Positions 7,272 to 26,462 of a DNA stretch of 64,000 bases are shown in pieces. Made by a program: the position numbers and the translations under genes. The number at the start of each line of letters is the position of its first letter. Position 1 is the stretch's first letter. This stretch comes from Jannaschia rubra (GTDB taxonomy: Bacteria > Pseudomonadota > Alphaproteobacteria > Rhodobacterales > Rhodobacteraceae), in contig NZ_CXPG01000020.1 of the NCBI RefSeq assembly GCF_001403735.1, forward strand, positions 434,001-498,000, given 5' to 3'. A model generated the notes under the pieces. That model saw only the letters and a list, made by a program, of their open reading frames with translations, was not told the DNA's origin and made no database searches.

Positions 7272-7817
7272 CTACAGATCCCGCGCGATCCGTTCCGCCA
7301 GCCTCAGCCAGGCGGCTTCGTGGGCGGCGATGATGGCGGGGTAGCTGGCGATGTCGGCGACGGGAACGGTGATGGCGAAGTTGCCGACGCGGTCGCGGCC
7401 GACCTCGGACTTTACGGCAAAGGTTCCGTTCAGGCGCAGTTGGCTGTTCGAGGAGACTATCATGTCGTCCACGAAGACCGACACCTCGGCTTCGGGAAAG
7501 CCCGACAGGGGCCAGGGTTCGGTGGCCACGCGGGCGTCGGTCATCGTGTTCAGGTGACGGGTCAGGGCGCCCTGCATCGCGCGGTCGGGCAGGTCGGCCC
7601 AGAGGCGCGACGTGTCCGTCAGCAGGCTTCCGTCGGGCTGCTGGATCGGGATTTCCTGGTTCAGCGCGTATTCCGGCACCGACACGCGATTCATCTGCAC
7701 CGTCTGGGCGGCCACGTTGACGCGGATGTCCGTGATCACGGGCGGCGGCGTGAAATACTGCGTCTGGCCGCAGGCGGCGAGCAGAAGGGGAAGGGCAAGG
7801 GGCAGCATCTTCGACAT
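7272..7817 (-). CDS. pqiC: PqiC-like outer-membrane lipoprotein (ABC-type transport auxiliary)
   Basis: A 181-residue lipoprotein. The N-terminal signal ends in the lipobox LLAAC (Cys16) and is followed by a single domain of the PqiC/DUF330 family. Known in E. coli: PqiC is an outer-membrane lipoprotein that docks the PqiB needle. It is the last gene of the tam-pqi operon and begins 4 nt after the pqiB stop. Two near-identical short basic segments are absent, so the family call rests on the lipobox, size, context and the TDTSRLWADLPDRAM block. Confidence 0.82.
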   Translation of the reverse strand: MSKMLPLALPLLLAACGQTQYFTPPPVITDIRVNVAAQTVQMNRVSVPEYALNQEIPIQQPDGSLLTDTSRLWADLPDRAMQGALTRHLNTMTDARVATEPWPLSGFPEAEVSVFVDDMIVSSNSQLRLNGTFAVKSEVGRDRVGNFAITVPVADIASYPAIIAAHEAAWLRLAERIARDL

Positions 7818-7821
7818 GGCA

Positions 7822-9954: not shown

Positions 9955-10568
9955 GAAGCGCTTTCATCGGATATGATCTCGATCTCGTCCCAGATGCGGC
10001 GGCTGTCGAAGCTGAGCGCCGAAAGCATGGTGAAGACGACCGACAGGGCGAAGCAGACGGCCGCGATGCCGGGGTTGATCGTCGCGATCAGGTTGAATTG
10101 CACCAGCGCGACCAGGATGGCCACGACGAAGACGTCGATCATGGACCAGCGGCCGATGAACTCGACGATCTCGAACAGGTGGAGCATGTGGCGCGGGCGA
10201 TACCCACGGGAGCGGCGGACCATCACGGCGAGATAGCCGATGGCGATGAACTTGCCCACGGGGATCATCACCGAGGCGAAGAAGACGATGCCCGCGACCG
10301 CATAGGCCCCGTGGTGCATGAGCTCGATCACGCCGCCGACGATGGTGGCGTCGGAGGCGAGGCCGACGGTCCGGGTAATGAGCATGGGATAGAGGTTCGC
10401 GGGAATGTAGAACAGCAGGCCCACCAGCCACCATGCCCAGACCCGTTGCAGCGACGTGGGGTCGCGGCTTTGCAGCCCGCCGCCGCAGCGGGGGCAGACC
10501 TCCGTATCGGCGGGCCAGACGCGAGTGCAATGGCGGCATCCCACCAGTCCCGCGTCCAGCGCCGTCAA
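9951..10568 (-). CDS. pqiA: PqiA-like membrane protein, second half (PqiA2)
   Basis: A 205-residue PqiA domain. The N-terminal zinc ribbon CRHC...CPRC is followed by four membrane segments (for example about 38-58 VWAWWLVGLLFYIPANLYPML, then GIVFFASVMIPVGKFIAIGY and two more). PqiA is the inner-membrane partner of PqiB. Start choice is open. TTG at 10566-10568 gives a TTGA overlap with the pqiA1 stop, matching the other junctions. An in-frame ATG at 10605-10607 would add 13 residues and overlap pqiA1 by 43 nt. Confidence 0.88.
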   Translation of the reverse strand: MTALDAGLVGCRHCTRVWPADTEVCPRCGGGLQSRDPTSLQRVWAWWLVGLLFYIPANLYPMLITRTVGLASDATIVGGVIELMHHGAYAVAGIVFFASVMIPVGKFIAIGYLAVMVRRSRGYRPRHMLHLFEIVEFIGRWSMIDVFVVAILVALVQFNLIATINPGIAAVCFALSVVFTMLSALSFDSRRIWDEIEIISDESAS

Positions 10569-11209
10569 CGCGGCGAGTTTTTCGCTGCCGTGTCGAGCGC
10601 CGTCCATATCGAATGCTTGCTCATCTGCGTGTCCTGAAGCGCCGTTATGAAGACGATGGCGGCGAAAGACCAGAACGCAGGTCCCATCGACAGGGTGGCC
10701 AGATCGGCCAGCTTGACCAGCGCCACGGCCACGCCGACCATGAAGATCTCGGCCATGGCCCAGGGTTTCACCGTCTCGGACAGGCGCAGCATGAGGGCGG
10801 CGCAGGGCAGGGGCGCGCGCTCGATGGCGAGGGGGCCGAGCGCCCAGAGGATGGCGGCGAGGCGCCCGACGGGCAGGATGATGACGAAGAAGGCCACGGC
10901 GATCGACAGGGGCGCCATGATCCCTTCGGAAAAGCTCATGACCGTCTCGAAGACCGAGGCCCGGCTGGTGAAGACGCCGTTTCGCAGTTGCAGGAACGGG
11001 TAGAAGATCACGATGGTCATGAGCACCAGAGAAGTGGCGGCCAGCGTGACGATGCGGAGGATGGCCTCCGGCCGGCCGACGGCGATCACCGTCCGGCAAC
11101 GGACGCAGCGCAGCCGGATGCCGTCGGGGATCTCGTCCACCACATGCAGCGCGTCGCAGACCGGGCAGCAGATCAGGTCTTCCAGCGCAGCGGGGTCTGC
11201 CCCGTCCAT
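10565..11209 (-). CDS. pqiA: PqiA-like membrane protein, first half (PqiA1)
   Basis: A 214-residue PqiA domain with an N-terminal zinc ribbon (CCPVC...CVRC, about residues 14-41) and four membrane segments starting at about 52 (ILRIVTLAATSLVLMTIVIF). E. coli PqiA carries both halves in one 417-residue chain; here they are two genes. The start ATG shares one base with the tamB stop (TGATG), so translation is likely coupled. Confidence 0.9.
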   Translation of the reverse strand: MDGADPAALEDLICCPVCDALHVVDEIPDGIRLRCVRCRTVIAVGRPEAILRIVTLAATSLVLMTIVIFYPFLQLRNGVFTSRASVFETVMSFSEGIMAPLSIAVAFFVIILPVGRLAAILWALGPLAIERAPLPCAALMLRLSETVKPWAMAEIFMVGVAVALVKLADLATLSMGPAFWSFAAIVFITALQDTQMSKHSIWTALDTAAKNSPR

Positions 11210-14200
11210 CAGTAGTCCCGTTCGTAGAACAGGCCGAGCGCCGTTCCGCCCGCGGCGCCGGCCGACCCACGCACCGTCAGGTTCGGCGAGACGTCGAGGT
11301 TCAGCGAAATCGCAGCCTCGCCGTTCTGGTCGACCTGCACGTCCGTATAGACGTTGTCCGACAGGTACTTGCCTGCCCTCAGCGCCACGTTCCCGTCGTC
11401 GTCCGTGGTGATGTCGAGATCGTCGAGCCCCGCACTGCCGCGCAGGTTATCGAGCAGGCCGCCGCTGCTGCGTCCGGCGAGGACCGCGATGGAGTTGGCC
11501 AGTTGCAGGGCCTGCAACGGCGACAACTGGTCGAGCCCGCGACCGAAGAAGATCTGGGCCACGACTTCTTCCTGCGGGACTTCGGGCACCGACTCGAAGG
11601 TCACGCCGATGTCGTCCGCCGGCCCTTCGATCACGATGGATGCGGTGATCGTGTCCGTCTGCGTCGTCGCCACGAGGCGGATGTAGGGCACGAGGCTGCC
11701 CTGAAAGCTGATCCGACCTTCGTCGAGATCGAACCGCTGTTCCAGGATATCGAGGCGTCCGCGGACCAGCTCGAACCCGCCCGAGGTGATCGGGTTCTTC
11801 GTCGTTCCCATGAGGCGCAGCGTGCCCCCGAGTTCGGCGTCGAGTCCCCGGCCGCGCACGAAGATGCGGCCCGGCGCGTTGATCGTGAGGTCGAGGCCGT
11901 AGGCCGGCCCCGCACTTTCCGCACGGGCGGCCTCGGCGCGGGCTTCCTCGGTCTGGCCCGCGCGGGCGAGCGTGCGCTGGACGGGACGCGGCGTGCTCAG
12001 GTGCCGGATCTCGGGCAGATCGCCCACCGCCGTCAGGCCGGAGGATGGGACCGCGATTTCCGCGCCGTCGATATTGATGACCCCGCCGATCGTCGCCCCG
12101 CCGGTGAGCGGGCCGGTGACGGTCACGCGACCGTCGAGGTCGGCGGTATAAAGCGACGGATCCTCCAGCGTGATGTCGAAATCCGCCACCAGGTTGGCGT
12201 CGAACGGCGGCGACAGCGTGACCGGGCCGGTGACGGACAGGCGCCCCCCGGATTGGGGCGATGCGCTCAGGTCCACCTGGGCCCGACCCCCGGTCAGCGT
12301 CACCGTGGCGTCGATGGCCTCGAGGCCGTTGCGCAGCGTCGGCAACGACAGGGCCGCGCCCGAGGTGGTGATGCGCCCCGAGACGCTGTCGAGCGAGGGC
12401 GGGCCGTTCAGCGTCAGGTCGAAATTCGCGGTTCCGGCCAGCCGGCGCGGGGCCAGCGCCGCATTGGCGAGGCCGAGCGGCGCGGAGCCGTCGACCGACA
12501 GGTTCAGCGTTCCGTCGGTGCCGATGGTGCCGTCCACCGCCGCCTGCGTGCCGGAGGGACCTTGCAGGTCGATGTCGATGGCATAGGCATCGCCCTGGCC
12601 GCGCGCGGTGCCCGAAACGCGCAGCGGCCCGGAGATGCCGGTCAGCGGCCCGATGTCGGGCACGGCCAGCGTGAACTGCGCCTGCGGAGCCTGGCCGGTC
12701 AGCGTGCCGCTGGCCGTCAGGGTTGAACGGAGAGGGCCGGAAGCGTCGAGGTCGACCGCCCACTGTCCGTCCTGCTGGAACAGGCGGCCCGAGGCGGAGA
12801 GCGCGCCGTTCAGACCTGGAACGAAGGGCGAGACGTCAGCGGCCGACAGGCGGAAATCGAGCGCGGCATCCGGCCCCGTGGCAATGCCGTCCACGGCCGC
12901 CGACAGGCCCTGCGCGCCGTCGACCGTCGCATCGACCTGCCACTGGCCGTCGGTCTGGCTGGCGGTGACGGCATAGGTCAGCGGCCCGCGAAGCTGCGGC
13001 GCGAGCGCGGAGCTTTCGGGGATCCGGCCGCTGGCCTCGATCGCCGGCGCGTCGCCGGTCAGGTCGACCGTCGCATCCACCGTGGCCGCATAGGGGCCGG
13101 TGCCGTCCAGGTCGATGAGAAAGCCGTCGTCCGTCTGCACCGCCTGACCCGTGACCGACAGGCCGCCGGGCACGGGGGCAAGTTCGCTCAGGTCGGGCAC
13201 GTCGGCGGTGAAGTCGACGACGAGGGGCGAGGCCGTCAACACGGTCTCCGCCGTCACGACAGCGCCGAACGGCCCGCGTGCCGTGACCTGGGCCATCCAG
13301 TCGTCGGCCGTCTTCGCCACGCGGCCGTCGACATCGAGCCTGCCTTCGACGGCGGGCACGAAGTCGGAGATCTCGGGCACGGTGCCTGCGAACTCCACCT
13401 GCGCGGACTCGCCCGTCACCGGGCCTTCGGCGCGCAGCGTGATGCCGGAGGGGGCCTCGGCGCGCGTATCCAGCACCCAGGCGCCGTCTTGCTGCGCCAG
13501 CGTCCCGTCGAGCGTGACCGCGCCCCGAAGGGCCTCGATCGTCTCGACGGCGGGGACGGGTCCGCTCAGGTCGGGCAGGTTGGCCGAGAAGGCGATGCGC
13601 GCCGCCTCGCCCGTGACGGGGCCTTCGACGGTGGCGGTGGCGTTCCAGGGGCCGGTGGCGTCGGCGTCGAGCGACCAGATGCCATCCCGTGCGAAGGCCC
13701 GGCCTTCGAGGGTGACACCGCCCGGAACGCCCGGCGCGAAGGGTTCGAGATCGGGCACGGTGGCCGAGAACTCCACATCGGGGGCCTCGCCCGTCAGGGT
13801 GCCGGAGGCGCTGAGGGCGATGCCCTGAGGGGCCCGTCCCTCGACCGTGCCCTGCCAGACGCCTGCCGCATCCTGCGTCAGGTCCGCCGACAGGTCGACC
13901 GGGCCGTCGAGCCGCGGGTCGATCGCGGTCCCGTCGGCCAGACGGGCCGACAGGGTCGCGCGGCTGGTCTGTCCGTCCTGCCGCTGGGCGGCTTCCTCGG
14001 CAAGGAGGGCGGCACTGCCTTCGACGCTCAGTTGGGCGTTGGAGAGGTTCAGATCGTCGACGAAGGTTCCGTCCACCGTCCGCCGGGTTTCGAGCGCGAG
14101 CGTCGTCTCGCCCGACAGCACCGCGTCGGCTTGCGGGATCCCCAGGCCCAGATCCCGGGTCCGCGCCCCGAGGGTCAGGTCGAACGTTCCGGCCAGCGGG

Positions 14201-15759
14201 GAAAAGTCGCCCGTCACCGTCGCGTCGGCCGAGCCGGACAGGTCGCGGCCCGCGACGCCGGAAAGGCGGGCAAGGTCGTCGACCATGACGGAGAGGTCCA
14301 TGCCGATGTTCAGCGGATGCTCCGGATCGGCACCGGCGATGGTGACGCTGCCGTCGAGCCCGTAGCCCGCGCCGTCGAGCGACAGGTCGCCGAGCCGCAC
14401 CGGCTGGCCCCTGTCCCACGCGAGATCGGTGGAGAGCGTGACGGCGTCTCCCACGGCGCGGGCCAGATCGGGGTCGGCGAAGTCGAGCCCGTCGAGCGCC
14501 GCCTGGATCGCGGCGGTCGCGCCGGTGACGGCGCTGTCGGCACGTTCCAGCGTGCCCGTCGCGGTCAGGTTGGCGGTCTCCAGCGACAGCGCGGGGCTGT
14601 CGTAGTCCTGGAGCGAAAGATCGAACCGCCAGTCGTCGGAAACGCTTGCGTCCTGACGGACGGTAAGGCTGGCCTGACGTATGCGCGCGTCGGAGGAGGT
14701 CGGAAGCAGCACGGGCGTCCCGTCGTCGGAGGCGATGCTGCCGGTCAGGTCGATGTATTCGGGCCAGCCGTCCGCGCCGATCCGCGCTTCGCCCGAGAGG
14801 TCGAGCGCCTGCGTGTCCACCTGCAGCCAGTCGAGATCGATGCCGCCGCCGTCGCGTTGCAGGCCCTGCGCCACAAGCTGCACGTTCTCGCCGAAGAAGG
14901 GCTTGTAGCGCGGCGCGAAAAGCTCGGTCACGTCGCCGCCCAGATCGACGTCGAAGCGGCGGCCGTCCTCCGTGCCGGTCAGCGTGACCTGCCCGGCCAG
15001 CCGGTCCTGTCCGTCGGAGGCCAGCGCGATGTCGGCCGAGAAATCGTCGAGCGGCCCGTTTCCCTTGACCGTCAGGTCGATGGCCGGGTCGCCCGGCAGT
15101 TGCAGCAGGGTGGCCGCGACGCCTCCTTCGGGTTCGCTGATGTCGAGGTCGATGGACAGCGGCTGGCCCTCGCCACCGTAGGACGCCTGGATGGAGTAGC
15201 GGCCGGCGGTCTCGTCGATGCGCTGCGCCTCGATGCTGATCGATCCGGCGCCGTCGGCCAGTTGCGCCGTCGCGTCGAGCGTCAGGGCGAGATCCTGCCC
15301 CAGAAGCGGTGCGCCCAGTTCGATGCGGTCGGCATGGAGTGCCTCGATATCGACCGCGACCGGGAGTTCGGGCAGCGAGAAGCCCGAGGCGCCCGCGTCG
15401 GGCAGGCGGTCCACCCCCTCGGGCGGCAGGGGCGTGCGTTCGACCACGATGCGCGCGGCGGAGAGTTCCTCCACCTCCAGCCGCCCACGCAGGAGGGCCG
15501 AGCGGTTCCAGTCGAGGACCACGTCCTCCATCCGCAGCCAGGCGCCTTCCTCGTCGGAGATCTGCAAAAGGTCGATGGAAGCGCGGGACGACAGCGCCCC
15601 TTCGAACCCGTCGATGCGGATCTGCAGGCCCGGCGACGACAGGTTGTCCTCGATCAGGCCGGCGATGAACCCGCGGTCGCGATCCTCCTCGCTGTCCTGC
15701 GCGAGGGCCGGATGCGGGAGGGCGAGGGCGAGAGCCATGGAAAGCGTGCGTGTCTTCAT
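11209..15759 (-). CDS. tamB: Translocation and assembly module protein TamB
   Basis: A 1516-residue AsmA-like/TamB protein. A cleavable or anchoring signal (MKTRTLSMALALALPHPALA) is followed by a very long beta-strand-rich body and the conserved C-terminal TamB (DUF490) domain with GGFELVRGRLDILEQRFDL and the FFGRGLDQLSPLQALQLA segment. Known: TamB spans the periplasm as a hydrophobic groove, pairs with TamA, and is implicated in phospholipid transport and outer-membrane protein insertion. The ATG at 15757-15759 overlaps the tamA stop (TAATG). The middle carries about eight 60-residue repeats. Confidence 0.95.
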   Translation of the reverse strand: MKTRTLSMALALALPHPALAQDSEEDRDRGFIAGLIEDNLSSPGLQIRIDGFEGALSSRASIDLLQISDEEGAWLRMEDVVLDWNRSALLRGRLEVEELSAARIVVERTPLPPEGVDRLPDAGASGFSLPELPVAVDIEALHADRIELGAPLLGQDLALTLDATAQLADGAGSISIEAQRIDETAGRYSIQASYGGEGQPLSIDLDISEPEGGVAATLLQLPGDPAIDLTVKGNGPLDDFSADIALASDGQDRLAGQVTLTGTEDGRRFDVDLGGDVTELFAPRYKPFFGENVQLVAQGLQRDGGGIDLDWLQVDTQALDLSGEARIGADGWPEYIDLTGSIASDDGTPVLLPTSSDARIRQASLTVRQDASVSDDWRFDLSLQDYDSPALSLETANLTATGTLERADSAVTGATAAIQAALDGLDFADPDLARAVGDAVTLSTDLAWDRGQPVRLGDLSLDGAGYGLDGSVTIAGADPEHPLNIGMDLSVMVDDLARLSGVAGRDLSGSADATVTGDFSPLAGTFDLTLGARTRDLGLGIPQADAVLSGETTLALETRRTVDGTFVDDLNLSNAQLSVEGSAALLAEEAAQRQDGQTSRATLSARLADGTAIDPRLDGPVDLSADLTQDAAGVWQGTVEGRAPQGIALSASGTLTGEAPDVEFSATVPDLEPFAPGVPGGVTLEGRAFARDGIWSLDADATGPWNATATVEGPVTGEAARIAFSANLPDLSGPVPAVETIEALRGAVTLDGTLAQQDGAWVLDTRAEAPSGITLRAEGPVTGESAQVEFAGTVPEISDFVPAVEGRLDVDGRVAKTADDWMAQVTARGPFGAVVTAETVLTASPLVVDFTADVPDLSELAPVPGGLSVTGQAVQTDDGFLIDLDGTGPYAATVDATVDLTGDAPAIEASGRIPESSALAPQLRGPLTYAVTASQTDGQWQVDATVDGAQGLSAAVDGIATGPDAALDFRLSAADVSPFVPGLNGALSASGRLFQQDGQWAVDLDASGPLRSTLTASGTLTGQAPQAQFTLAVPDIGPLTGISGPLRVSGTARGQGDAYAIDIDLQGPSGTQAAVDGTIGTDGTLNLSVDGSAPLGLANAALAPRRLAGTANFDLTLNGPPSLDSVSGRITTSGAALSLPTLRNGLEAIDATVTLTGGRAQVDLSASPQSGGRLSVTGPVTLSPPFDANLVADFDITLEDPSLYTADLDGRVTVTGPLTGGATIGGVINIDGAEIAVPSSGLTAVGDLPEIRHLSTPRPVQRTLARAGQTEEARAEAARAESAGPAYGLDLTINAPGRIFVRGRGLDAELGGTLRLMGTTKNPITSGGFELVRGRLDILEQRFDLDEGRISFQGSLVPYIRLVATTQTDTITASIVIEGPADDIGVTFESVPEVPQEEVVAQIFFGRGLDQLSPLQALQLANSIAVLAGRSSGGLLDNLRGSAGLDDLDITTDDDGNVALRAGKYLSDNVYTDVQVDQNGEAAISLNLDVSPNLTVRGSAGAAGGTALGLFYERDY
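12485..13925 (-). repeat. About eight divergent ~60-residue tandem repeats in TamB
   Basis: The translated middle of TamB repeats a ~60-residue unit of the form VPDLxxFxPxxxG-xLxxxGxxxxxDGxWxxDxxAxGPxxxxxxxxGxxTGxAPxxxF. Successive copies measured by eye are 58-66 residues (about 180 bp) long. They are diverged at DNA level, so this is an old beta-groove expansion rather than a fresh duplication. Limits are approximate. Confidence 0.75.
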
Positions 15760-17537
15760 TAGAATGCCTGCCCTATGCCGATGTAGACCTGCACGCCGGA
15801 CGGATCGTCCGGCCCCGAGACGGGAAAGGCCACGTCGAAGCGGATCGGGCCGATGCCCGTGTCGTAGCGGATGCCGAGGCCCGCGCCCGACTGCGTGTCG
15901 CCGCCCGAAAAGTCGCTGTCGGGGCTGACGAGGCCGAAATCGGCGAAGCCCACGACACCGATCTTCTCGGTCACCTGCTGGCGCACCTCGGCCGAGAGGC
16001 CGGCGAAGGACTTGCCGCCGACGACCTCTCCACTGGGAAGCGTCACGCCGAGGGACTGGAACTCCTGCCCGCGCACGGTGCCGCCGCCGCCCGAGAAAAA
16101 CAATGTGTTCGCCGGCACTTCGTCGAGATCGGGGCCCACGACGCTGCCCAGTTGCAGCCTGGCGGCCAGGACGGTGCCGTTCTCGGCCCCGAACCCCTGA
16201 TAGCCGCGCAGGTCGCCCCTGAAGACCGCGCCGCTGCCGCCCGTCTGGAACCCCGCGAAGGGGCGCAGCCCGGCCTCGACGTAGTAGCCGTCGGCCGGGT
16301 TCAGAAGGTCGTCGCGCCGGTCGTAAGTCGCGGTCAGGGGCAGCGAAAGGATCGAGAACTCCCGCTCGCCGAAGGCATCGGTGTCGCGGCTGTATTCGTA
16401 GCCCACGCCGTAGGAATACTGGAACTCGTCGGACACGATGCGACGGGCGCCCGCCTCGATATAGGCGCGGTCGGTGGTGAACTTCGGCTCGTCCAGGCTT
16501 TCGACGCCCCCGTTCACGAAGAGGTCCGTTTCGGGATTGAAGGTCGCCGGGCGGTTGTAGGCGAAGTTGATGCCATAGTCGGCGCCGCCCTCGTCGGCGC
16601 CGATGTCGTTCACTCCGCCCTCGATCCGCAGGCTGTCGGCATAGCCGGTCAGGTTGCGGTGCAGCCAGTAGGCGGTGGTCGAGATCCCCTCGTTCGAGGA
16701 AACCTCGGCCCCGAACCCGAAGCGGCGGGGCAGGCGCTCGACCACCTGGACGGTCATGGGCAGGGTATCGCCGGGCCCGATATCGTCGGCTTCCGTGATC
16801 GAGACGGAGCTGAAGGCGCCGGTGCGTTGCAGGCGGCGGGCGGATTCCGCGACTTCCTCCGGGTCGAAGACGTGGCCCTGCCGCAGGTCGGCCAGGCGGG
16901 AAATCTGACGGGTGTAGACATCCTCGTTGCCCGTCACGGCGACGTTGCCATAGACGAGCCGCGGCCCGGGGGCGACCGTCAGCCGCGCGTCGAGGACGTC
17001 GGCTGCGTGGTCCGCGACGATGTCCTGGCCGGCAATCTCGGCCTTGGCGTGGCCGATGGCGCGCCACGCCTCGACCCCGGTGCGTGCGGTCCGCCGCAGG
17101 ATGTCCGTGCCGGCGGGCTGGCCTGTCGCGAAGCCTTCGGGAAGTTCCGTGCCGGGCGCCAGGGGGGCGATCTGCGTGGTGCGGAACAGGAACCGCGGCC
17201 CTTCCTGCACGCTGATCGTGACGGTGCCGACGGGATCGGTCGATCCGATGGTCGGCAGGTTCGCGGCCTCTACCCCGTCCACCTGAATCGAGATGACAGG
17301 GCCGAAATGCCCGGCCTCGAACAACACGGCCAGCAATCGGCGGTAATCCGCCTGCGCGGCCGCGACCAGGTCGCGCCGCTCGGTCTGGCCGTCTTCGACG
17401 GCGCCGACGACGAGCGACGCATTCCGCAGGCTGTCCCGCAGGTCATCGTCTTCGGGGAAGGCAAGATTGACGGTCGCAGCCCGAAGGGGCACCGCAAGCA
17501 GCAGCAGGGCAAGCCCGGTGGCAGTCACAAATCTCAC
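15759..17537 (-). CDS. tamA: Outer-membrane assembly protein TamA (Omp85 family)
   Basis: A 592-residue Omp85 protein. A signal peptide (about 1-20, LALLLLAVPLRAA) precedes three POTRA-like domains (about 25-260) and a 16-strand-type C-terminal barrel, with the family motif VRGQEFQSLG and the closing strand ending in QVYIGIGQAF (terminal Phe). Directly upstream of, and overlapping, tamB. First gene of the six-gene minus-strand operon ending in pqiC; divergent from the ATP-grasp gene across 310 bp. Confidence 0.95.
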   Translation of the reverse strand: MRFVTATGLALLLLAVPLRAATVNLAFPEDDDLRDSLRNASLVVGAVEDGQTERRDLVAAAQADYRRLLAVLFEAGHFGPVISIQVDGVEAANLPTIGSTDPVGTVTISVQEGPRFLFRTTQIAPLAPGTELPEGFATGQPAGTDILRRTARTGVEAWRAIGHAKAEIAGQDIVADHAADVLDARLTVAPGPRLVYGNVAVTGNEDVYTRQISRLADLRQGHVFDPEEVAESARRLQRTGAFSSVSITEADDIGPGDTLPMTVQVVERLPRRFGFGAEVSSNEGISTTAYWLHRNLTGYADSLRIEGGVNDIGADEGGADYGINFAYNRPATFNPETDLFVNGGVESLDEPKFTTDRAYIEAGARRIVSDEFQYSYGVGYEYSRDTDAFGEREFSILSLPLTATYDRRDDLLNPADGYYVEAGLRPFAGFQTGGSGAVFRGDLRGYQGFGAENGTVLAARLQLGSVVGPDLDEVPANTLFFSGGGGTVRGQEFQSLGVTLPSGEVVGGKSFAGLSAEVRQQVTEKIGVVGFADFGLVSPDSDFSGGDTQSGAGLGIRYDTGIGPIRFDVAFPVSGPDDPSGVQVYIGIGQAF

Positions 17538-17847: not shown

Positions 17848-19275
17848 ATGGACGATACTTCCCCCTTCGACGAGATGCTGCGCCCGGACGGATCGGTGCG
17901 CGACGCCTATCGCGCCTTCGAGGCGTGGTTCTCCTCCGAACGACCGGGCGATCTGCGCGCCAAGGCCCGCGAGGCCGAGGCCGTGTTCCGCCTGACCGGG
18001 ATCACCTTCAACGTCTACGGCCAGGCCGAAGCGGGCGAGCGCCTGATCCCCTTCGACATCGTGCCGCGCATCATCGCCGCCCGCGAGTGGGCACGCCTCT
18101 CGAAAGGGATCGAGCAGCGGGTGCGCGCGCTGAATGCCTTCCTCCACGACATCTACCACCGTCAGGAAATCGTGCGCGCCGGGCGCCTGCCGGTCGGGAT
18201 GATCGCGCGCAACGACGCCTATCTGAGCGGGATGATCGGGGTGGAGCCGCCGGGCGGCATCTATACCCACATCGTCGGCATCGACCTGGTGCGGACGGGG
18301 CCGGACCAGTTCTACGTGCTCGAAGACAACGCACGCTGCCCCTCGGGCGTCAGCTACATGCTCGAAAACCGCGAGACGATGCTGCACATGTTCCCCGAGC
18401 TGTTCTCGGCCAACAGGGTGCAGCGCGTCAGCCGCTATCCCGAGACGCTGCACGCAAGCCTTGCCGCCTGCGCGCCGAGGATGTGCGAGGGTGACCCGAC
18501 GGTCGCGGTGCTGACGCCCGGCATCCACAATTCCGCCTATTACGAGCACAGCTTCCTGGCCGACCAGATGGGCGTCGAACTGGTCGAGGGGCACGACCTG
18601 CGGGTCGTGGACGGCCGCATCGCCATGCGGACGACGCAGGGGTATCGCGCGATCGACGTGCTCTATCGCCGGGTCGACGACGATTTCCTCGACCCGCTGA
18701 ACTTCCGCCCCGACAGCCAGCTGGGCGTGCCGGGCATCTTCGACGTCTACCGCGCGGGCGGCATCACGATCGCGAACGCGCCGGGAACCGGGGTGTCCGA
18801 CGACAAGGCGATCTACAGTTACATGCCCGAGATCGTGGAGTTCTACACCGGCGAGAAGCCCCTGCTGGAGAACGTGCCGACGTGGCGCTGCTCCGACCCC
18901 GACAGCCTGGCCCATGTCCTCGACAACCTGGAGGAGCTTGTGGTCAAGGAGGTGCATGGATCGGGCGGCTACGGCATGCTGATCGGCCCCACCGCGTCGA
19001 AGAAGGACATTCGGGAGTTCCGTCGCAAGCTGGAGGCGCGGCCCGGCAACTACATCGCGCAGCCGACGCTGGCCCTGTCGACGACGCCCATCTTCACTAG
19101 GGCCGGTCTGGCGCCCCGGCATGTGGACCTGCGGCCCTTCGTGCTCGTCAATCCGAACGGTATCGAGATCACGCCGGGCGGGCTGACGCGCGTGGCGCTG
19201 AAAAAGGGGTCGCTGGTCGTCAACTCCTCGCAGGGGGGAGGCACCAAGGACACCTGGGTGCTGGAGGACGAATGA
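17848..19275 (+). CDS. Circularly permuted ATP-grasp protein (Anbu-cluster)
   Basis: A 475-residue protein of the circularly permuted ATP-grasp type 2 family (DUF404/DUF407). Seen: FDIVPRIIAAREWARLSKG, RALNAFLHDIYH, the DLVR..DQFYVLEDNARCPSG core at about residues 150-170, VLTPGIHNSAYYEH, and the C-terminal VVKEVHGSGGYGML and SSQGGGTKDTW motifs. Such proteins are predicted to join an amino group to a carboxylate at ATP cost; the substrate is unknown. It overlaps the alpha-E gene by 4 nt. A GTG two codons upstream (17842) is an alternative start. Confidence 0.93.
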   Translation: MDDTSPFDEMLRPDGSVRDAYRAFEAWFSSERPGDLRAKAREAEAVFRLTGITFNVYGQAEAGERLIPFDIVPRIIAAREWARLSKGIEQRVRALNAFLHDIYHRQEIVRAGRLPVGMIARNDAYLSGMIGVEPPGGIYTHIVGIDLVRTGPDQFYVLEDNARCPSGVSYMLENRETMLHMFPELFSANRVQRVSRYPETLHASLAACAPRMCEGDPTVAVLTPGIHNSAYYEHSFLADQMGVELVEGHDLRVVDGRIAMRTTQGYRAIDVLYRRVDDDFLDPLNFRPDSQLGVPGIFDVYRAGGITIANAPGTGVSDDKAIYSYMPEIVEFYTGEKPLLENVPTWRCSDPDSLAHVLDNLEELVVKEVHGSGGYGMLIGPTASKKDIREFRRKLEARPGNYIAQPTLALSTTPIFTRAGLAPRHVDLRPFVLVNPNGIEITPGGLTRVALKKGSLVVNSSQGGGTKDTWVLEDE

Positions 19276-20216
19276 TGCTGGGCAAGACCGCAGGCGGGCT
19301 CACCTGGCTGTTCCGCTACATGGAGCGGTGCGAAAACCTCGCCCGGCTGGTCGAGACCGGCCAGAGGATCGCGCTGACCCGGCCCGACCGGGCCGAGAGC
19401 GAATGGGCCGGCGTGCTGAAGACCGCCTGGGCCAAGCCCGGCTTCGACGCCCACAACGATGCCGTGACGGGCGAGGCGGCGGTGGACTGGCTGCTGCGAA
19501 GCCCCGACAACCCCTCCTCGGTGCTCAGCTGCATCGAGAACGCGCGCATGAACGCCCGGCTGGTCCGCACGGCCCTGACGCGAGAGGTCTGGGAGGCGGT
19601 CAACGAATGCTGGATGACCCTGCGCCGCGAGTTGCAGCGCAAGGTCGCGCCCCGCGACCTGCCCCGCGTGCTCGGCGTCATCCGGCAGCGGTCGGCCTTC
19701 GTTCGCGGATCGCTGACCGGGACGATGCTGCGCAATGACATTTATAACTTCGCACGGCTCGGCACCTTTCTGGAACGCGCCGATGCGACGGCCCGGCTGC
19801 TCGACGTGAAATACTACGTTTTGCTGCCCTCGGCCGCCGGCGTGGGCTCGACCCTCGACAACGCGCAGTGGGAGATGATCCTGCGGTCCGTCTCGGCGGA
19901 GGGGGCGTTCCGCATGATCCACGGGCGTACCCGCCGGCCCGCGGCCATCGCGCGGTTCCTCATCCTCGACGGACGGCAACCGCGCGGGTTGTCGTTCTGC
20001 TATTCCAAGATCGGAAGCAATTTGAACCATCTGGAACGGGACTACGGGGCCCGGTTGCCAAGTCACGACATGGCAGACGCCATGTGCGAGGATCTGGAGC
20101 GCGCGACGATCGAGGACATCTTCGATACCGGCCTGCACGAATTCCTGCAGGACTTTCTGAAACGCAACGCCGAACTGGGCGCGCAGATCGAGCGCGACTA
20201 CAGGTTCTTCGCATGA
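19272..20216 (+). CDS. Alpha-E domain protein
   Basis: A 314-residue all-helical alpha-E (DUF403) protein. Family marks are the N-terminal LFRYMERCENLARLV, the central FNDIYNFARLGTFLERADATARLLD-like block (about 155-180), and the repeated Glu-rich helices. Function unknown. It almost always occurs beside a circularly permuted ATP-grasp and a transglutaminase, and is thought to act with them. It overlaps both neighbours by 4 nt (ATGA), so the three are translated as one unit. Confidence 0.93.
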   Translation: MMLGKTAGGLTWLFRYMERCENLARLVETGQRIALTRPDRAESEWAGVLKTAWAKPGFDAHNDAVTGEAAVDWLLRSPDNPSSVLSCIENARMNARLVRTALTREVWEAVNECWMTLRRELQRKVAPRDLPRVLGVIRQRSAFVRGSLTGTMLRNDIYNFARLGTFLERADATARLLDVKYYVLLPSAAGVGSTLDNAQWEMILRSVSAEGAFRMIHGRTRRPAAIARFLILDGRQPRGLSFCYSKIGSNLNHLERDYGARLPSHDMADAMCEDLERATIEDIFDTGLHEFLQDFLKRNAELGAQIERDYRFFA

Positions 20217-21025
20217 CCGCGCGCCTGTCCATCCGCCACACCACTACCTATCGCTGGTCGGAGCCGGTGACCTATGCGCTGCAACAGCTTCGCCTGACGC
20301 CGAAAAGCCGGGCAGGCCAGACCGTGCTGGACTGGACCACCGAGGTCGAGGGCGGCCGGGTCGAGGCGACCTTCGATGACGCCCATGCCAACCAGACCCA
20401 GCTCGTGTCCGTCGATGCCGGCCAGCGCGAGGTGACCATCACGGCGCGCGGCACAGTCGAGGTCGAAGCCCGCAACGGCGTGGTCGGCGCGCAGAAGGGG
20501 TTCATGCCGCTGTGGATGTTCCTGCGACCCACCGATCTGACGCGGCGGGGGCCGGGGACCATGGCGCTGGCGCGCGAGGTGCGCGACGTGGCCGACCCGC
20601 TCGAGCGGATGCACGCGCTCTCGGCGGCGATCCGCGACCGGGTGGCCTTCGACACCACGGCCGCCGAAGTGACGCGTACGGCCGAGGATGCCGTCGCGGC
20701 CGGCGCCGGCGTCTGCCAGGACCATGCCCACATCTTCCTGACCTGCGCGCGCCTTCTCGAGGTGCCGGCGCGCTATGTCTCGGGCTACCTCAAGATGGAC
20801 GACCGCGACGAGCAGGACGCCACCCACGCCTGGGCCGAGGCGCATCTGGAGGGTCTCGGCTGGACCGGGTTCGACGTCTCGAACGTGATCGCGCCCGACG
20901 ACCGCTACGTTCGCGTGGCGACGGGGTCGGACTATTCGGACGCGGCCCCCGTGACGGGCGTCCGCCAGGGCGCGGGGGAAGAGACGCTGGACGTCCACCT
21001 GTCCGTCCGCCAGGCCCAGCAATAG
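20213..21025 (+). CDS. Transglutaminase-like cysteine protease family protein
   Basis: A 270-residue protein with an N-terminal bacterial transglutaminase-associated beta region (SIRHTTTYRWSEPV, about 6-19) and a papain-like transglutaminase core. The catalytic triad is visible as Cys168 (GAGVCQDHA), His205 (ATHAWAEA) and Asp221 (GFDVSN). It may cleave or transfer isopeptide/amide bonds made by the ATP-grasp partner; this is inference from the conserved gene set. ATGA overlap with the alpha-E gene; 86 bp separate it from the Anbu gene. Confidence 0.93.
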   Translation: MTARLSIRHTTTYRWSEPVTYALQQLRLTPKSRAGQTVLDWTTEVEGGRVEATFDDAHANQTQLVSVDAGQREVTITARGTVEVEARNGVVGAQKGFMPLWMFLRPTDLTRRGPGTMALAREVRDVADPLERMHALSAAIRDRVAFDTTAAEVTRTAEDAVAAGAGVCQDHAHIFLTCARLLEVPARYVSGYLKMDDRDEQDATHAWAEAHLEGLGWTGFDVSNVIAPDDRYVRVATGSDYSDAAPVTGVRQGAGEETLDVHLSVRQAQQ

Positions 21026-21056
21026 CGTCGCCTGTTCCCGAGTCCCCGGCCGGACA

Positions 21057-21085
21057 TTGACACGGCGCCGTGCGGGGCAGACATC
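21057..21085 (+). promoter_or_regulatory. Possible promoter of the Anbu gene
   Basis: A perfect TTGACA (21057-21062) is followed after 17 bp by GACATC, a poor -10. It sits 50 bp before the Anbu ATG, in the only real gap of the cluster. It may give the peptidase extra, independent transcription. Weak evidence because the -10 is poor. Confidence 0.3.
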
Positions 21086-21111
21086 GGGCCTTCACATCAG
21101 CGGAACCCCCA

Positions 21112-21843
21112 ATGACCTATTGCGTCGGCATGCAACTTCGCCAAGGCCTCGTCTTTCTGTCTGACACGCGGACGAATGCCGGGCTCGACAACATCTCCAG
21201 CTATTGCAAGATGACCACCTGGGAGGTTCCCGGCGACCGGGTGATGATGCTCATGACGGCGGGCAACCTCGCCACCACACAGGCCGTCGTCAGCCTGCTG
21301 GAGGAGCGCAATCTCGCCCCTTCGGACCGCGATCCCACCCTGCTGGGGGTGCCGTCGATGTTCCAGGCCGCGCGCCTGATCGGACAGACGCTTCGCGACG
21401 TGATCGCCGAACAGGCGCGGACGGGGCCGACCGCCGCGTCGACCTTCAACGCGACGATGATCTTCGGTGGGCAGGTCAAGGGCGGGCCGCCGCGTCTCTA
21501 CATGATCTATCCCGAAGGCAACTTCGTCGAGGCGCAGTCGGATACGCCTTTCTTCCAGATCGGCGAGACGAAATACGGCCGCCCCATCCTCGTGCGCGCC
21601 TACGACCCGGACATGGATTTCGCGCGGGCCGTCAAGCTTCTGATGGTGAGCTTCGATTCCACCATCCGCGCGAACCTGTCGGTCGGCACCCCGCTCGACC
21701 TGCGGATCTACGAGGCCGACAGCATGAAGATCGGCTACTCGCGCCGGATCGAGGATACGGACGCCGACTGGCGCGCGGTATCCGACGGCTGGTCCGATGC
21801 CCTGCGACAGGCTTTCGACAGCTTGCCGGACGTGACGCTCTGA
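21112..21843 (+). CDS. Proteasome-type peptidase (Anbu, ancestral beta subunit)
   Basis: A 243-residue Ntn-hydrolase of the Anbu/COG3484 proteasome-like family. After removal of Met1 the nucleophile would be Thr2 (M-T-Y-C-V-G). The N terminus continues QGLVFLSDTRTNAGLDNI, the standard Anbu signature with its conserved Asp. Length and the C-terminal ADWRAVSDGWSDALRQAF block fit. Known: Anbu forms open-helix or ring assemblies; natural substrates are unknown. Together with the three upstream genes it forms the widespread ATP-grasp/alpha-E/transglutaminase/Anbu set. Confidence 0.95.
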   Translation: MTYCVGMQLRQGLVFLSDTRTNAGLDNISSYCKMTTWEVPGDRVMMLMTAGNLATTQAVVSLLEERNLAPSDRDPTLLGVPSMFQAARLIGQTLRDVIAEQARTGPTAASTFNATMIFGGQVKGGPPRLYMIYPEGNFVEAQSDTPFFQIGETKYGRPILVRAYDPDMDFARAVKLLMVSFDSTIRANLSVGTPLDLRIYEADSMKIGYSRRIEDTDADWRAVSDGWSDALRQAFDSLPDVTL

Positions 21844-21895: not shown

Positions 21896-22549
21896 ATGCT
21901 GCTGACCGTTCGCGATGTCGAGAAGAGCTTTGAGACGGCGGACGGCCCCCAGCCGGTCCTGCGCGGAGTATCGCTGTCGCTCGGGACGGGGCGGACGCTG
22001 GCGCTGACGGGGGAAAGCGGCTCGGGGAAATCCACGCTTATGCACCTCATTGCCGGGCTCGACACGCCCGACGCAGGCCGGATCGAGATCGACGGGCAGG
22101 ACATCGGCGCCATGGGCGATGCCGCGCGGGCGGCGATGCGGCGCGATGCCGTGGGCCTGATCTTCCAGCAGTTCAACCTGATCCCCTCGCTGAACGTGGC
22201 CGACAACCTGACCTTCCACGCCCGTCTGGCCGGCCGCGATCCGGGCGAGGTTGGCGATCTGGCCGCGCGCCTGGGCCTGTCCGATCATCTGCATCGCTAT
22301 CCCGAACAGCTGTCGGGCGGGCAGCAGCAGCGGGTCGCCATCGGCCGCACCCTGGCCGCGCGGCCCCGGCTGGTGCTGGCGGATGAACCGACGGGCAACC
22401 TCGACGAGGCGACGGGCGACGCCATGATGGCCCTGATGCGCGACCTCGCGCGCGACACGGGGGCGGGGCTGCTCATGGTGACCCATTCGACGCGACTGGC
22501 CGACATGCTCGACGAACGCCTGCACCTGCGGGCGGGGCGGATCGCGTGA
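21896..22549 (+). CDS. ABC transporter ATP-binding protein (LolD/MacB type)
   Basis: A 217-residue ABC ATPase. Walker A is GESGSGKST (about 40-48), the Q-loop is IFQQFNLIPSL, the signature is LSGGQQQRVAIGR, Walker B is LVLADEPTGNLD, and the switch His is in VTHSTRLAD. The FQQFNLIP sequence is typical of LolD/FtsE/MacB-like exporters of lipids or lipoproteins. It overlaps the permease gene by 4 nt (GTGA). Probably powers the FtsX-type permease encoded next. Confidence 0.95.
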   Translation: MLLTVRDVEKSFETADGPQPVLRGVSLSLGTGRTLALTGESGSGKSTLMHLIAGLDTPDAGRIEIDGQDIGAMGDAARAAMRRDAVGLIFQQFNLIPSLNVADNLTFHARLAGRDPGEVGDLAARLGLSDHLHRYPEQLSGGQQQRVAIGRTLAARPRLVLADEPTGNLDEATGDAMMALMRDLARDTGAGLLMVTHSTRLADMLDERLHLRAGRIA

Positions 22550-24921
22550 ACCGGGCGGCCCTCAAGGCCCTGACGGCCCATTGGTGGCGCCACCCCCTGC
22601 AACTCGTGACGCTGGTCGTGGGGCTGGCGCTGGCGACCGGGCTCTGGACCGGGGTGCAGGCGATCAACGCGCAGGCGCGGCTGAGCTACGACCGCGCGGC
22701 GGCGACGCTCGGGCAATCCGACCTGCCGCGCCTCGAAGGGGCGCTGACGCTCGCCGATTTCGCCACAGCCCGGCGCGCTGGCTGGCGCGTCACGCCGGTG
22801 CTGGAGGGGCGCTTGCCGGACAGCACGCTGCGGATCCTCGGCATCGACCCCTTTACCGCGCCGCCGTCGGGCGGGACGCCCGATCTGTCGCAGGGCGACG
22901 ACCTGACGGGGTTCCTCGCCGGCAACGTCATCTTCGCTGCGCCGGATGCGCGCCTTCCCGACGGCCTGCCGCCCGCGCGCGTGTCGGAGGCGCTCGCCCC
23001 CGGCATCGTTCTGGCCGACATCGCAGCGGCGCAGGGCATCCTCGGCACTGACACCGTGACACGCCTGCTGGTCCTGCCGGACCAGCGCACGGGCCTTCCG
23101 CCGCTGACCGAGCTTCTGCCCGGCACGCGCCTGGTCGAGCCGCAAATGGGCGCCAACATCGCCCGGCTGACCGACAGCTTCCACCTGAACCTGACGGCTT
23201 TCGGCCTGCTCGCCTTCGTCGTCGGCCTGTTCATCGTACACGCGGCCATCGGCCTCGCCTTCGAACAGCGCCGCCCCCTGTTCCGAACCCTGCGCGCCCT
23301 GGGCCTGCCCGCATCGCGGCTGACGCTGCTGCTTGCGGTGGAGCTGCTGGGGTTCACGCTGGTGTCGGGGGCGCTGGGCATCCTGCTGGGGTACGTCGTG
23401 GCGGCGCTGCTGCTGCCCGGTGTCGCGGCGACGCTGGCCGGGCTTTACGGCGCGGGCGTCGCCGGCAGCCTGTCGCTGTCGCCGGTGTGGTGGCTGTCGG
23501 GCTTCGCGATGGCCGGCGCGGGGCTGGCGCTCGCGGGAGGGCAGAGCCTCTGGCAACTGGCGCATCTTCCGGTGCTGGCGCCCGCCATGCCGCGCGCCTG
23601 GGCCCGCGCCCGTGCCGCGACCCTGCGGCGGCAGGCGGTGGGCGGCGGTGTTCTTCTGCTGTTGGCAGGCGCGATCGCGGTTCTGGGCGACGGTCTGGTT
23701 GCCGGTTTCGCCTGCCTTGGGGCGCTGCTTCTGGGCGCGGCCCTGCTGCTGCCGCCGCTGCTGTCGATTGTGCTCGATCTCGGCACGGGCCGGGCGAAGG
23801 GAGCCGTGGCGCAATGGCTCTGGGCCGATGCCCGCCAGCAGGTCCCGGGGCTCAGCCTCGCGCTTATGGCGCTGCTCCTGGCGCTGGCGGCCAATATCGG
23901 TGTAGGCACCATGGTCGGCAGCTTCCGCGCCACCTTCACCGGCTTTCTCGACCAGCGCCTTGCGGCGGAACTCTATGTCTACGCCGCCGATCCCGGCGAA
24001 GCGCAGGCGATCCGCGCCTTCGTCGCCCCGCGGGTCGACGCCGTGCTGCCGGTGGTCTCGGTCGACTCCACGCTCGAGGGGGCTCCGGGGCAGATCTACG
24101 GTCAGGCCGACCATGCGACCTTCCGCGACAACTGGCCGCTGCTCGACGCGGCGCCCGGCGTTTGGGACCGCCTGGCCGCAGGCGAGGGTGCGCTGATCAA
24201 CGAGCAGCTGGCCCGCCGGACCGACCTCTGGTCCGGCGAACGCGTCGATCTGGGCAGCGGAGGAATGCGGGACATTCTGGGTGTCTATTCGGACTACGGC
24301 AATCCCCTGGGACAGGCGATCCTGACCGACGCTCTGTTCCGAGAGGTCTTCCCCGGCATTCCGACATTGCGGTTCGGCCTGCGTCTCGACCCCGCCGACG
24401 TGCCTGCCCTGTCGCGCGACCTGACCGAGCGGTTCGACCTGCCGTCCGATCGTGTGGTCGATCAGGCACGCATCAAGGCCTTCTCGCTCGGGGTGTTCGA
24501 GCAGACCTTCGCGGTGACCGCCGCGCTGAACGTGCTGACGCTGGGGGTCGCGGCCTTTGCGCTCTGGGCTTCGCTCACGACATTGGGCACGATGCGGGTG
24601 CCGCAGGTGGCGCCGGTCTGGGCGCTGGGTCTGACACGGGCGCGGCTGGCAGTGGCCGATCTTGTCCGCGCGTTGCTGCTCGCGGCGTTCACCGCGGCGC
24701 TGGCCGTGCCTACCGGCATCGCGCTGGCCTGGGTTCTTCTCGCGGTGGTCAACGTGCAGGCCTTCGGCTGGCGCCTGCCGCTGCTGCCGGACCCGGCGGG
24801 GTGGGCAGGCCTCGTCCTCTGGTCGCTGATGGCGGCGGGGCTTGCGGCGGCCTTCCCGGCCTGGCGTCTCTGGCGCATGGCCCCCGCCGATCTGGTCAAG
24901 GTGTTCGTCAATGAACGTTAG
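22546..24921 (+). CDS. FtsX-like (MacB/AttFG-type) ABC transporter permease
   Basis: A 791-residue permease. One N-terminal membrane helix (about 18-36) is followed by a periplasmic domain to about 215, then several helices (about 220-420), a second periplasmic domain (about 465-635) and three or four C-terminal helices. This is two FtsX modules in one chain. GTG start at 22546 overlaps the ATPase stop. In att-type systems the two modules are often separate proteins (AttF, AttG). The substrate is unknown. Confidence 0.9.
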   Translation: MNRAALKALTAHWWRHPLQLVTLVVGLALATGLWTGVQAINAQARLSYDRAAATLGQSDLPRLEGALTLADFATARRAGWRVTPVLEGRLPDSTLRILGIDPFTAPPSGGTPDLSQGDDLTGFLAGNVIFAAPDARLPDGLPPARVSEALAPGIVLADIAAAQGILGTDTVTRLLVLPDQRTGLPPLTELLPGTRLVEPQMGANIARLTDSFHLNLTAFGLLAFVVGLFIVHAAIGLAFEQRRPLFRTLRALGLPASRLTLLLAVELLGFTLVSGALGILLGYVVAALLLPGVAATLAGLYGAGVAGSLSLSPVWWLSGFAMAGAGLALAGGQSLWQLAHLPVLAPAMPRAWARARAATLRRQAVGGGVLLLLAGAIAVLGDGLVAGFACLGALLLGAALLLPPLLSIVLDLGTGRAKGAVAQWLWADARQQVPGLSLALMALLLALAANIGVGTMVGSFRATFTGFLDQRLAAELYVYAADPGEAQAIRAFVAPRVDAVLPVVSVDSTLEGAPGQIYGQADHATFRDNWPLLDAAPGVWDRLAAGEGALINEQLARRTDLWSGERVDLGSGGMRDILGVYSDYGNPLGQAILTDALFREVFPGIPTLRFGLRLDPADVPALSRDLTERFDLPSDRVVDQARIKAFSLGVFEQTFAVTAALNVLTLGVAAFALWASLTTLGTMRVPQVAPVWALGLTRARLAVADLVRALLLAAFTAALAVPTGIALAWVLLAVVNVQAFGWRLPLLPDPAGWAGLVLWSLMAAGLAAAFPAWRLWRMAPADLVKVFVNER

Positions 24922-25927
24922 GGCGCTCCTCATCCTTCTCTGGCTCGCCTTTCCGGCGCAGGGCCAGGGTTTCGCCGGGCTGGGCCAGGGGGGCGAGGGG
25001 TTCGCGCTGCCGCGGCCCGATCCCACCTTCGCCTTTCCCGCCGACCACGGCCCCCATCCCGACTACCGCATCGAATGGTGGTACCTGACGGCGACGCTGA
25101 CGGGCGATGACGGCCGTCCTTATGGCATCCAGTGGACGCTGTTTCGCTCGGCCCTGACGCCCGCGGGGCCGCAGGTCTGGATGGGGCATTTCGGCCTTAC
25201 CACCCCCGACGCGCATTTCTCGGGCGAGCGTCTGGCCCGTGGCGGGGTCGGGCAGGCCGGCGTGACCCCGGACCCCTTCGCGGCCTGGATCGACGACTGG
25301 TCGCTGGCGGGCCCTGACATCGACACCCTGACCCTGCAGGCGCGGACGGGGGAAGCGGGCTACGACCTGACGCTCCGCGCCGAGGGGCCGCTCGTCCTGC
25401 ACGGTGACGGGGGGTTCTCGCGCAAGTCGGCGGCGGGGCAGGCGAGCTATTACTATTCGCAGCCTTTCTACCGCGTTTCCGGGACGTTGCACCTGCCTGA
25501 CGGGCCGGTGGAGGTGACGGGCAGCGGATGGCTCGACCGCGAATGGTCGTCGCAGCCCCTGCAGGACGACCAGGATGGCTGGGATTGGTTCTCGCTCCAT
25601 CTGGACGATGGCAGCCGGGTGATGGCCTTCTCGCTGCGCGGCGGATCGCCTTTTCACTACGCAAGCTGGATCGAACCGGACGGAACGCTTCGACCCTACT
25701 ACGGCGATGCGCTGACCGTCGCGCCGCTGGCCGTGACGGAGGTCGCCGGCCGTGAGGTGCCCGTGCGCTGGCGCGTGGCCCTGCCGGCGGAGGGGCTGGA
25801 CGTCACGGTCGCGGCGATGAACCCGCATAGCTGGCAGCCGACGCTCTTTCCCTATTGGGAAGGCCCGGTGACGGCATCGGGCAGTCACGCGGGCGCGGGC
25901 TATCTGGAGATGACCGGCTATGAGTGA
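24911..25927 (+). CDS. Secreted AttH/carotenoid-hydratase-like lipocalin-fold protein
   Basis: A 338-residue exported protein. The signal peptide is about 1-17 (ALLILLWLAFPAQG). The body is a double lipocalin-like AttH/CrtC fold: DYRIEWWYLTATLTG near residue 45, ASYYYSQPFYRVSGTL, then SGWLDREWSSQPL and WDWFSLHLDDGS. Family members are called carotenoid 1,2-hydratase or predicted secreted hydrolase, but no carotenoid genes are nearby. Context suggests it is the extracytoplasmic partner of the ABC permease. Overlaps the permease by 11 nt. Confidence 0.87.
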   Translation: MNVRALLILLWLAFPAQGQGFAGLGQGGEGFALPRPDPTFAFPADHGPHPDYRIEWWYLTATLTGDDGRPYGIQWTLFRSALTPAGPQVWMGHFGLTTPDAHFSGERLARGGVGQAGVTPDPFAAWIDDWSLAGPDIDTLTLQARTGEAGYDLTLRAEGPLVLHGDGGFSRKSAAGQASYYYSQPFYRVSGTLHLPDGPVEVTGSGWLDREWSSQPLQDDQDGWDWFSLHLDDGSRVMAFSLRGGSPFHYASWIEPDGTLRPYYGDALTVAPLAVTEVAGREVPVRWRVALPAEGLDVTVAAMNPHSWQPTLFPYWEGPVTASGSHAGAGYLEMTGYE

Positions 25928-26462
25928 TCCTTTCGCCGATCTGGGCTGGCTGCTCGACCATGTCTGGACGCGGCTCGAACGCGGGGCACGCGACGCCTCC
26001 GACCCGTTCCGCCTGGTGACGCTGGCGACGACAGGCCCGCATGGCGCCGAGGCGCGGATGGTCGGTCTGCGCGTGGCCGACCGGATGGCGCGCACCGTCG
26101 AGGTCCATACCGACCTGCGGACGGCCAAGGTGCGGGCGGCGATGCACGACCCGCGCGCGGCGCTGTTGGCCTGGGACACCGGGGCGCAGGTGCAACTGCG
26201 CCTGTCGGTAATGCTTGAGGTGATTGCCGCGGATGCCGATCGCTGGTCGCGGATCCCGGCGGAGGCGCGGCTCAACTACGGCACCGATCCCGCCCCCGGG
26301 GCGCCGGTCGATGCACCGCGCCAGGTCACGCGGACACCGGACATGGCCCGGTTCGCCGCGCTTCAGGGCAAGGTTTTCGCGATCGACATCCTGTCGCTCG
26401 CGCACGATCCCCACCGGCGCGCACGGTTCGACGGGACCGGGGGGCGCTGGATCGCGCCCTGA
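25920..26462 (+). CDS. Pyridoxamine 5'-phosphate oxidase-like FMN-binding protein
   Basis: A 180-residue split-barrel flavoprotein of the Alr4036/PNPOx-like group. Seen: DPFRLVTLATTG..GAEARMVGLR, VEVHTDLRTAKVRAAMHDPRAALL, and the C-terminal HRRARFDGTGGRWIAP that matches PNPOx tails. It probably binds FMN; the substrate cannot be named. The start overlaps the AttH-like stop by 8 nt, so it is the last gene of the ABC operon. Confidence 0.85.
   Translation: MSDPFADLGWLLDHVWTRLERGARDASDPFRLVTLATTGPHGAEARMVGLRVADRMARTVEVHTDLRTAKVRAAMHDPRAALLAWDTGAQVQLRLSVMLEVIAADADRWSRIPAEARLNYGTDPAPGAPVDAPRQVTRTPDMARFAALQGKVFAIDILSLAHDPHRRARFDGTGGRWIAP

Follow-up and report, generated by a model that had tools for sequence, protein, structure and literature searches.

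Whether the proteasome-like protein Anbu, which has been discussed as an extant relative of the ancestor of the proteasome, belongs to a fixed four-protein machinery or is an enzyme with a control of its own is the question raised by a locus of Jannaschia rubra (NCBI RefSeq assembly GCF_001403735.1, contig NZ_CXPG01000020.1, positions 434,001 to 498,000 of the forward strand; these 64,000 nucleotides (nt) are called the window throughout). At window positions 17848-21843 of the plus strand, open reading frames and Pfam identify intact genes for an ATP-grasp protein, an Alpha-E protein, a transglutaminase-like protein and Anbu, complete and in the order that an earlier reading, made from the letters alone (the sequence-only reading), had described. 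That reading had also taken the genes for a known, recurring set, and they match the published Anbu operon, which has the identical four genes in conserved order (PMC6376114, PMC5666114; papers given by such accessions are cited from excerpts); the locus is a typical copy of it. In profile searches of the whole genome, Alpha-E, Anbu, ATP-grasp and the transglutaminase N-domain each have a single match. We argue that ATP-grasp and Alpha-E form a core that makes an amide-linked product, and that Anbu is a separately controlled, core-dependent enzyme acting on this product, a reading to which we assign a probability of about one half.

The distribution of the four families was followed in an even sample of the phylum Pseudomonadota (299 genomes). 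Alpha-E was found in 171 of them, ATP-grasp above its cut-off in 171, the transglutaminase N-domain in 168 and Anbu in 115, with all four together in 107. The genome sets of Alpha-E and ATP-grasp are identical (171/171), their copy numbers are equal in 164 of the 171, and two natural fusions carry both in a single frame (L086:6013-8721, 902 amino acids (aa), and L092:8901-11519, 872 aa). The treatment of the two as one unit is thus supported by both distribution and fusion, and they are shown to be an inseparable core, nearly always accompanied by the transglutaminase-like protein, whose N-domain occurs without the core in 3 of the 299 genomes. The relation to Anbu is one-sided: the core is present in 113 of the 115 Anbu genomes, and Anbu is absent from 58 of the 171 core genomes. 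As Anbu is found almost solely in core genomes and the core often without Anbu, Anbu depends on the core and not the reverse. A lack of co-occurrence had been proposed as grounds for giving up the sequence-only reading; we find strong co-occurrence in this sample (Fisher p 1.4e-35, shared ancestry ignored) and in a second phylum sample, which supports a shared pathway.

These counts were made with genome sets transferred by hand from separate family searches. Three genomes whose ATP-grasp matches had E about 1e-4 and were regarded as falling under the curated cut-off (G080, G193, G354) were excluded before the comparison; with them the count is 174. The transglutaminase N-domain was counted at E <= 0.001, with 167 genomes over the cut-off. 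Among the Alpha-E matches listed, 35 of the 38 genomes lacking Anbu have an open frame of at most 500 aa (hand count), which leaves no room for a fusion of ATP-grasp and Alpha-E. The two Anbu genomes without the core (G152, G306) belong to one genus; no core gene lies near Anbu in either, and its neighbours in G152 encode histidine kinases, HPPK, a dehydrogenase and a methyltransferase. The second sample, 296 genomes, has Alpha-E in 62 (61 over the cut-off) and Anbu in 6, all six with Alpha-E, and Alpha-E without Anbu in 56 further genomes; it is centred on a record titled as an Acidimicrobiaceae metagenome-assembled genome (MAG), the Anbu contig of which may be misbinned. According to PMC5666114, archaea have other genes of the operon and no Anbu. 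Viral contigs gave six pattern matches to Anbu, none of which was confirmed. Separately, one Anbu match (G238:C7:212650-213369) contains an in-frame TAA, so that this Anbu may be decaying, and three MAG contigs titled Sulfopaludibacter, Acidimicrobiales and Acidimicrobiaceae (L105, L153, L172) carry an Anbu 60-63% identical to that of the window and are possibly misbinned alphaproteobacterial contigs.

The arrangement of the genes was compared as well. Of 80 named loci, the top-ranked of 597 candidates and hence weighted to close relatives, 74 keep the standard order, with a median of about 35 nt between the match ends of the transglutaminase and Anbu genes. The sequence-only reading had listed three ATGA-type overlaps or near-overlaps; the two within the first three genes stand, while the third junction is a gap of 86 nt, so the number of overlaps drops from three to two. 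This gap exceeds the median of the 74 standard-order loci. Within the genus, 11 relatives have a gap of 78-144 nt and 7 have one of 590-2072 nt, and in another genome of the genus (G009) Anbu is on the opposite strand, about 19 kilobases away from the core; in 8 of the 20 genus genomes, the window counted, Anbu is thus at least 590 nt or far from the transglutaminase gene. In two loci (L036, L044) the gap holds an opposite-strand gene of the 2'-5' RNA ligase superfamily. We considered such an intervening gene as a fifth component and rejected it, having scanned these two loci and judged the others by eye.

Some loci depart from the common layout in other ways. One (L085, genome G262) has two Anbu genes, both apart from the core and one with a transglutaminase-like match nearby. 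Both L057 and L063 have a distant transglutaminase-like match (23-24% identity) on the opposite strand upstream of ATP-grasp, and none was matched before Anbu. In L062 (G033), identity to the window's proteins is only 31% for ATP-grasp and 27% for Alpha-E, versus 45% for the transglutaminase and 55% for Anbu, as though the core pair had been exchanged. A mixed cluster in L092 (G077; 5528-15919) combines a fused ATP-grasp/Alpha-E gene with unfused core genes and with Anbu, directly behind which lies a TG-DUF2126 gene.

The gap before Anbu contains an element that recurs at the same place across the genus. At -62 to -51 of Anbu, 16 of 19 genus relatives have TTG[AC], as does the window with TTGACA; at the same position before the other genes TTG[AC] is present in 2 of 17 (ATP-grasp), 4 of 17 (Alpha-E) and 0 of 18 (transglutaminase). 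It is retained in L040, where Anbu has been relocated, and 13 of 18 aligned sequences have an A at the would-be second base of a -10 element at a spacing of 17. We consider the TTGACA element a probable, if unproven, promoter of Anbu.

Upstream of the core a different kind of signal is seen in other families. We scored a -24/-12 (sigma-54) site in the 400 nt before ATP-grasp with a threshold of 16 out of 17.5, set after a background run on 990 random pieces in which 16 was the 99th percentile; the patterns and weights for sigma-54 and NtrC were our own, and PMC5491218 prints GGcacg-N4-ttGC. Among 40 genomes of other families, 20 have a sigma-54-like site ahead of ATP-grasp (shuffle mean 0.54, maximum 5), and these 20 cores span 11 of 22 genera (hand count). 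Further cores outside the window's family have it in 3 of 7, and the cores of genomes without Anbu in 8 of 20 (shuffle mean 0.24, maximum 3). NtrC-like dyads are found in 16 of the 40 other-family genomes (shuffle mean 6.0, maximum 10). Before Anbu, no such sigma-54-like site is found in any of 37 genes (0/30 and 0/7; one further locus, L239, gave no match). In eight genomes of one family (f60) with unlinked Anbu, the core reaches at least 15.5 in six of eight and all nine Anbu genes score at most 14; G224 behaves alike (core 16 versus Anbu 13.5).

Published expression data point partly in the same direction. Under nitrogen limitation the core genes of Pseudomonas putida rise 11-15-fold, with Anbu at 1.12-fold in the wild type (PMC7801951). 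In Burkholderia cenocepacia the core cluster falls 6-9-fold in an ntrC mutant; this cluster includes a large transglutaminase protein, and the excerpt of the paper does not mention a proteasome (PMC5491218). In many beta- and gammaproteobacteria and some alphaproteobacteria the core looks to be switched on by nitrogen shortage.

The ATP-grasp protein covers the CP_ATPgrasp_2 domain in full (profile positions 1-374 of 374) and has a solved structural relative (PDB 3n6x, E 3e-191); a relative of it liberates phosphate from ATP (PMC6376114). It may use ATP to activate a carboxylate and then couple an amine, for which Alpha-E would be an obligate partner. The AlphaFold2 model of Alpha-E is all helical (predicted local distance difference test score, pLDDT, 88.7; predicted template modelling score, pTM, 0.89), and hhalign of half versus half shows homology of its N- and C-terminal parts (probability 97.8, E 8e-13), each with a Glu-Arg motif (E18-R19 and E168-R169) invariant in 32 sequences. 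A sequence search found no relative of Alpha-E in the PDB, and a Foldseek comparison of the model with the PDB gave nothing at E <= 0.001 (best 0.25), which is not proof of a new fold. The transglutaminase-like protein, with a weaker solved relative (3isr, E 4e-12), might trim or transfer amide bonds of the core product; its C168, H205 and D221, the Cys-His-Asp triad of Transglut_core, are invariant in 33 aligned sequences.

The Anbu frame begins ATG-ACC at 21112, placing a threonine straight after the start methionine with no propeptide, and thus at residue 2. T2, D18 and K33 (Thr1, Asp17 and Lys32 after removal of the methionine) are invariant in 38 aligned proteins, so the claim that the catalytic residues of Anbu and the transglutaminase are intact is borne out. 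Residue 32, just before the catalytic Lys33, is a cysteine (21205-21207), where 15 other aligned Anbu have Arg, Lys, Gln or Gly. Five distinct sequences of solved Anbu match (5loy 9.6e-91, 5nyj 1.2e-77, 5nyf 4.4e-77, 5lox 8.9e-67, 5nyw 3.1e-66), and published work describes Anbu as forming open-ring or lock-washer 12-14-mers (PMC5666114, PMC6376114). We propose that Anbu would be a dependent hydrolase acting on the core product or on proteins that carry it, and that it would be expressed from its own signals, out of lockstep with synthesis.

Several observations weigh against this proposal. In the excerpt of PMC6376114, test peptides were never hydrolysed by Anbu and no complex was detected among the operon proteins. 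The transglutaminase N-domain was not found in 6 of the 171 core genomes, and the co-occurrence and site counts are uncorrected for shared ancestry. Within the window's own family the sigma-54 promoter of the nitrogen-linked type was not found: none of 36 loci (the window, scoring 13, and 35 relatives) reaches 16 before ATP-grasp, and NtrC-like dyads occur in 4 of 36, fewer than the 5.7 that shuffling gives on average, so that nitrogen control is not shown for the window's locus; nor does any other regulatory motif before the operon of these relatives rise above background. An Anbu gene tightly behind the core may use the core's promoter, and therefore only the unlinked Anbu genes are informative; in 3 of the 5 unlinked genomes paired or pairable outside f60 and the window's relatives (G090, G276, G153) the core has no site. 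In P. putida the induction of the core in an rpoN mutant (14-20-fold) is as in the wild type (PMC7801951), and another study of this species found Anbu 11.1-fold up (PMC3325844). Finally, the -35-like element is followed by no canonical -10 and was not called by a standard promoter scan, and the positions counted for it were chosen after inspection of the gap sequences.

The first alternative, put forward in the sequence-only reading too, is a closed cycle in which the four proteins are one set: ATP-grasp and Alpha-E would attach an amide-linked tag to proteins, to be processed or taken off again by Anbu and the transglutaminase; that a tag is made and unmade in this way was already proposed by Iyer 2009, as cited in PMC6376114. 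The conserved order in 74 of 80 loci, the joint presence of all four families in 107 genomes and the intact catalytic residues would all fit it. Tight coupling of the four genes is not what we find, however, since Anbu is missing from the 58 core genomes, is detached from the core in several lineages, where it lacks the core's sigma-54-like site, and is distant from the transglutaminase gene in 8 of the 20 genus genomes, and we regard such a cycle as unlikely. More doubtful is the suggestion in PMC5666114 that Anbu serves nitrogen-starved cells as a general protease of protein turnover, with the other genes in support. Its Thr1 binds proteasome inhibitors (PMC5666114) and its expression in P. 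putida is linked to nitrogen (PMC5666114, PMC3325844), yet a general protease is not expected to need the core, which accompanies it in 113 of 115 genomes of the first sample and in all 6 of the second; moreover the unlinked Anbu genes have no sigma-54-like site, and peptidase activity was not detected according to the excerpt of PMC6376114.

It is equally improbable that Anbu is an acyl transferase or ligase, finishing or attaching the core product rather than hydrolysing it. Such a role has a precedent in connectase, a proteasome homologue that is a protein ligase (PMC8665760), and would suit both the dependence of Anbu on the core and a Thr1 that reacts with inhibitors although hydrolysis was not seen (PMC5666114, PMC6376114). 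On this view, however, the 58 core genomes without Anbu would be left with an unfinished product. Our proposal of a core-dependent, separately controlled Anbu can also be sharpened by analogy. Cyanophycinase and cyanophycin synthetase offer a parallel for an Anbu that breaks a compound made by the core. By that comparison the core might be a synthase of an amide-linked compound, induced by nitrogen starvation, and Anbu a dedicated, separately expressed breaker of this compound; we hold this specific version tentatively and think it rather unlikely as it stands, though if true it would explain the failure to cut proteasome test peptides.

Coordinates of the Anbu operon of Jannaschia rubra (window positions)
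Feature	Position	Strand	Basis
Circularly permuted ATP-grasp, 475 aa, probable amide-bond-forming ligase by sequence	17848..19275	+	Pfam CP_ATPgrasp_2 E 9.3e-164; PDB 3n6x E 3e-191
ATGA overlap, ATP-grasp stop and Alpha-E start	19272..19275	+	sequence
Alpha-E protein, 314 aa, modelled as all-helical, tandem duplication, two Glu-Arg motifs	19272..20216	+	Pfam Alpha-E E 4.9e-83
ATGA overlap, Alpha-E stop and transglutaminase start	20213..20216	+	sequence
Transglutaminase-like protein, 270 aa	20213..21025	+	Pfam Bact_transglu_N 1.1e-20, Transglut_core 8.6e-20
86-nt gap, transglutaminase to Anbu	21026..21111	+	sequence; relatives
TTGACA, putative -35-like element, 55 nt 5' of the Anbu ATG	21057..21062	+	position kept across genus
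Anbu, proteasome-like N-terminal-threonine protein, 243 aa	21112..21843	+	Pfam Proteasome E 7e-08; best PDB 5loy E 9.6e-91

Upstream of the operon (window 11209-17537, minus strand) lie divergent Omp85/POTRA and TamB-like genes, a Tam-type pair of which Omp85 adjoins the operon in only some genus relatives. Downstream (21896-26462, plus strand) are genes for an ABC transporter ATPase, an FtsX-like permease, a CrtC-type lipocalin protein and a pyridoxamine-oxidase-like protein. The ABC transporter was considered as a component of the system; of 19 genus relatives 18 have an adjacent match, as against 0 of 18 other loci, and, its adjacency being confined to the genus, we treat it as a mere neighbour. 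The PADLOC models of anti-phage defence matched none of the four proteins.

The asymmetry of dependence and control between the core and Anbu, which we did not find stated in the literature searched, is a new and useful addition to what is known of this operon. If it is true that Anbu needs the core and not the reverse, and that the two are controlled separately, the search for a substrate should move from proteins to the product of ATP-grasp and Alpha-E, and bacteria in which core and Anbu are unlinked would be natural test systems. The Anbu operons of Yersinia bercovieri and Pseudomonas (PMC6376114, PMC5666114) resemble the window in families, gene order and Anbu residues, as far as the excerpts describe them; the window differs in the 86-nt gap with its -35-like element before Anbu and in having no upstream sigma-54-like site. 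With the core clusters that hold TG-DUF2126 and a fused ATP-grasp/Alpha-E (such as L086 and L092) it shares the CP_ATPgrasp, Alpha-E and transglutaminase domains, whereas its own proteins are unfused and Pfam finds no DUF2126 domain in the four; the single genome-wide matches to Alpha-E, CP_ATPgrasp and the transglutaminase N-domain mean that there is no second cluster. The 20S proteasome beta subunit, lastly, is like the window's Anbu in belonging to the Pfam Proteasome family and in the threonine at position 2, but the window's protein scores 19-25 bits on NCBIfam archaeal proteasome models with cut-offs of 219-287, and the solved relatives found for it are Anbu.

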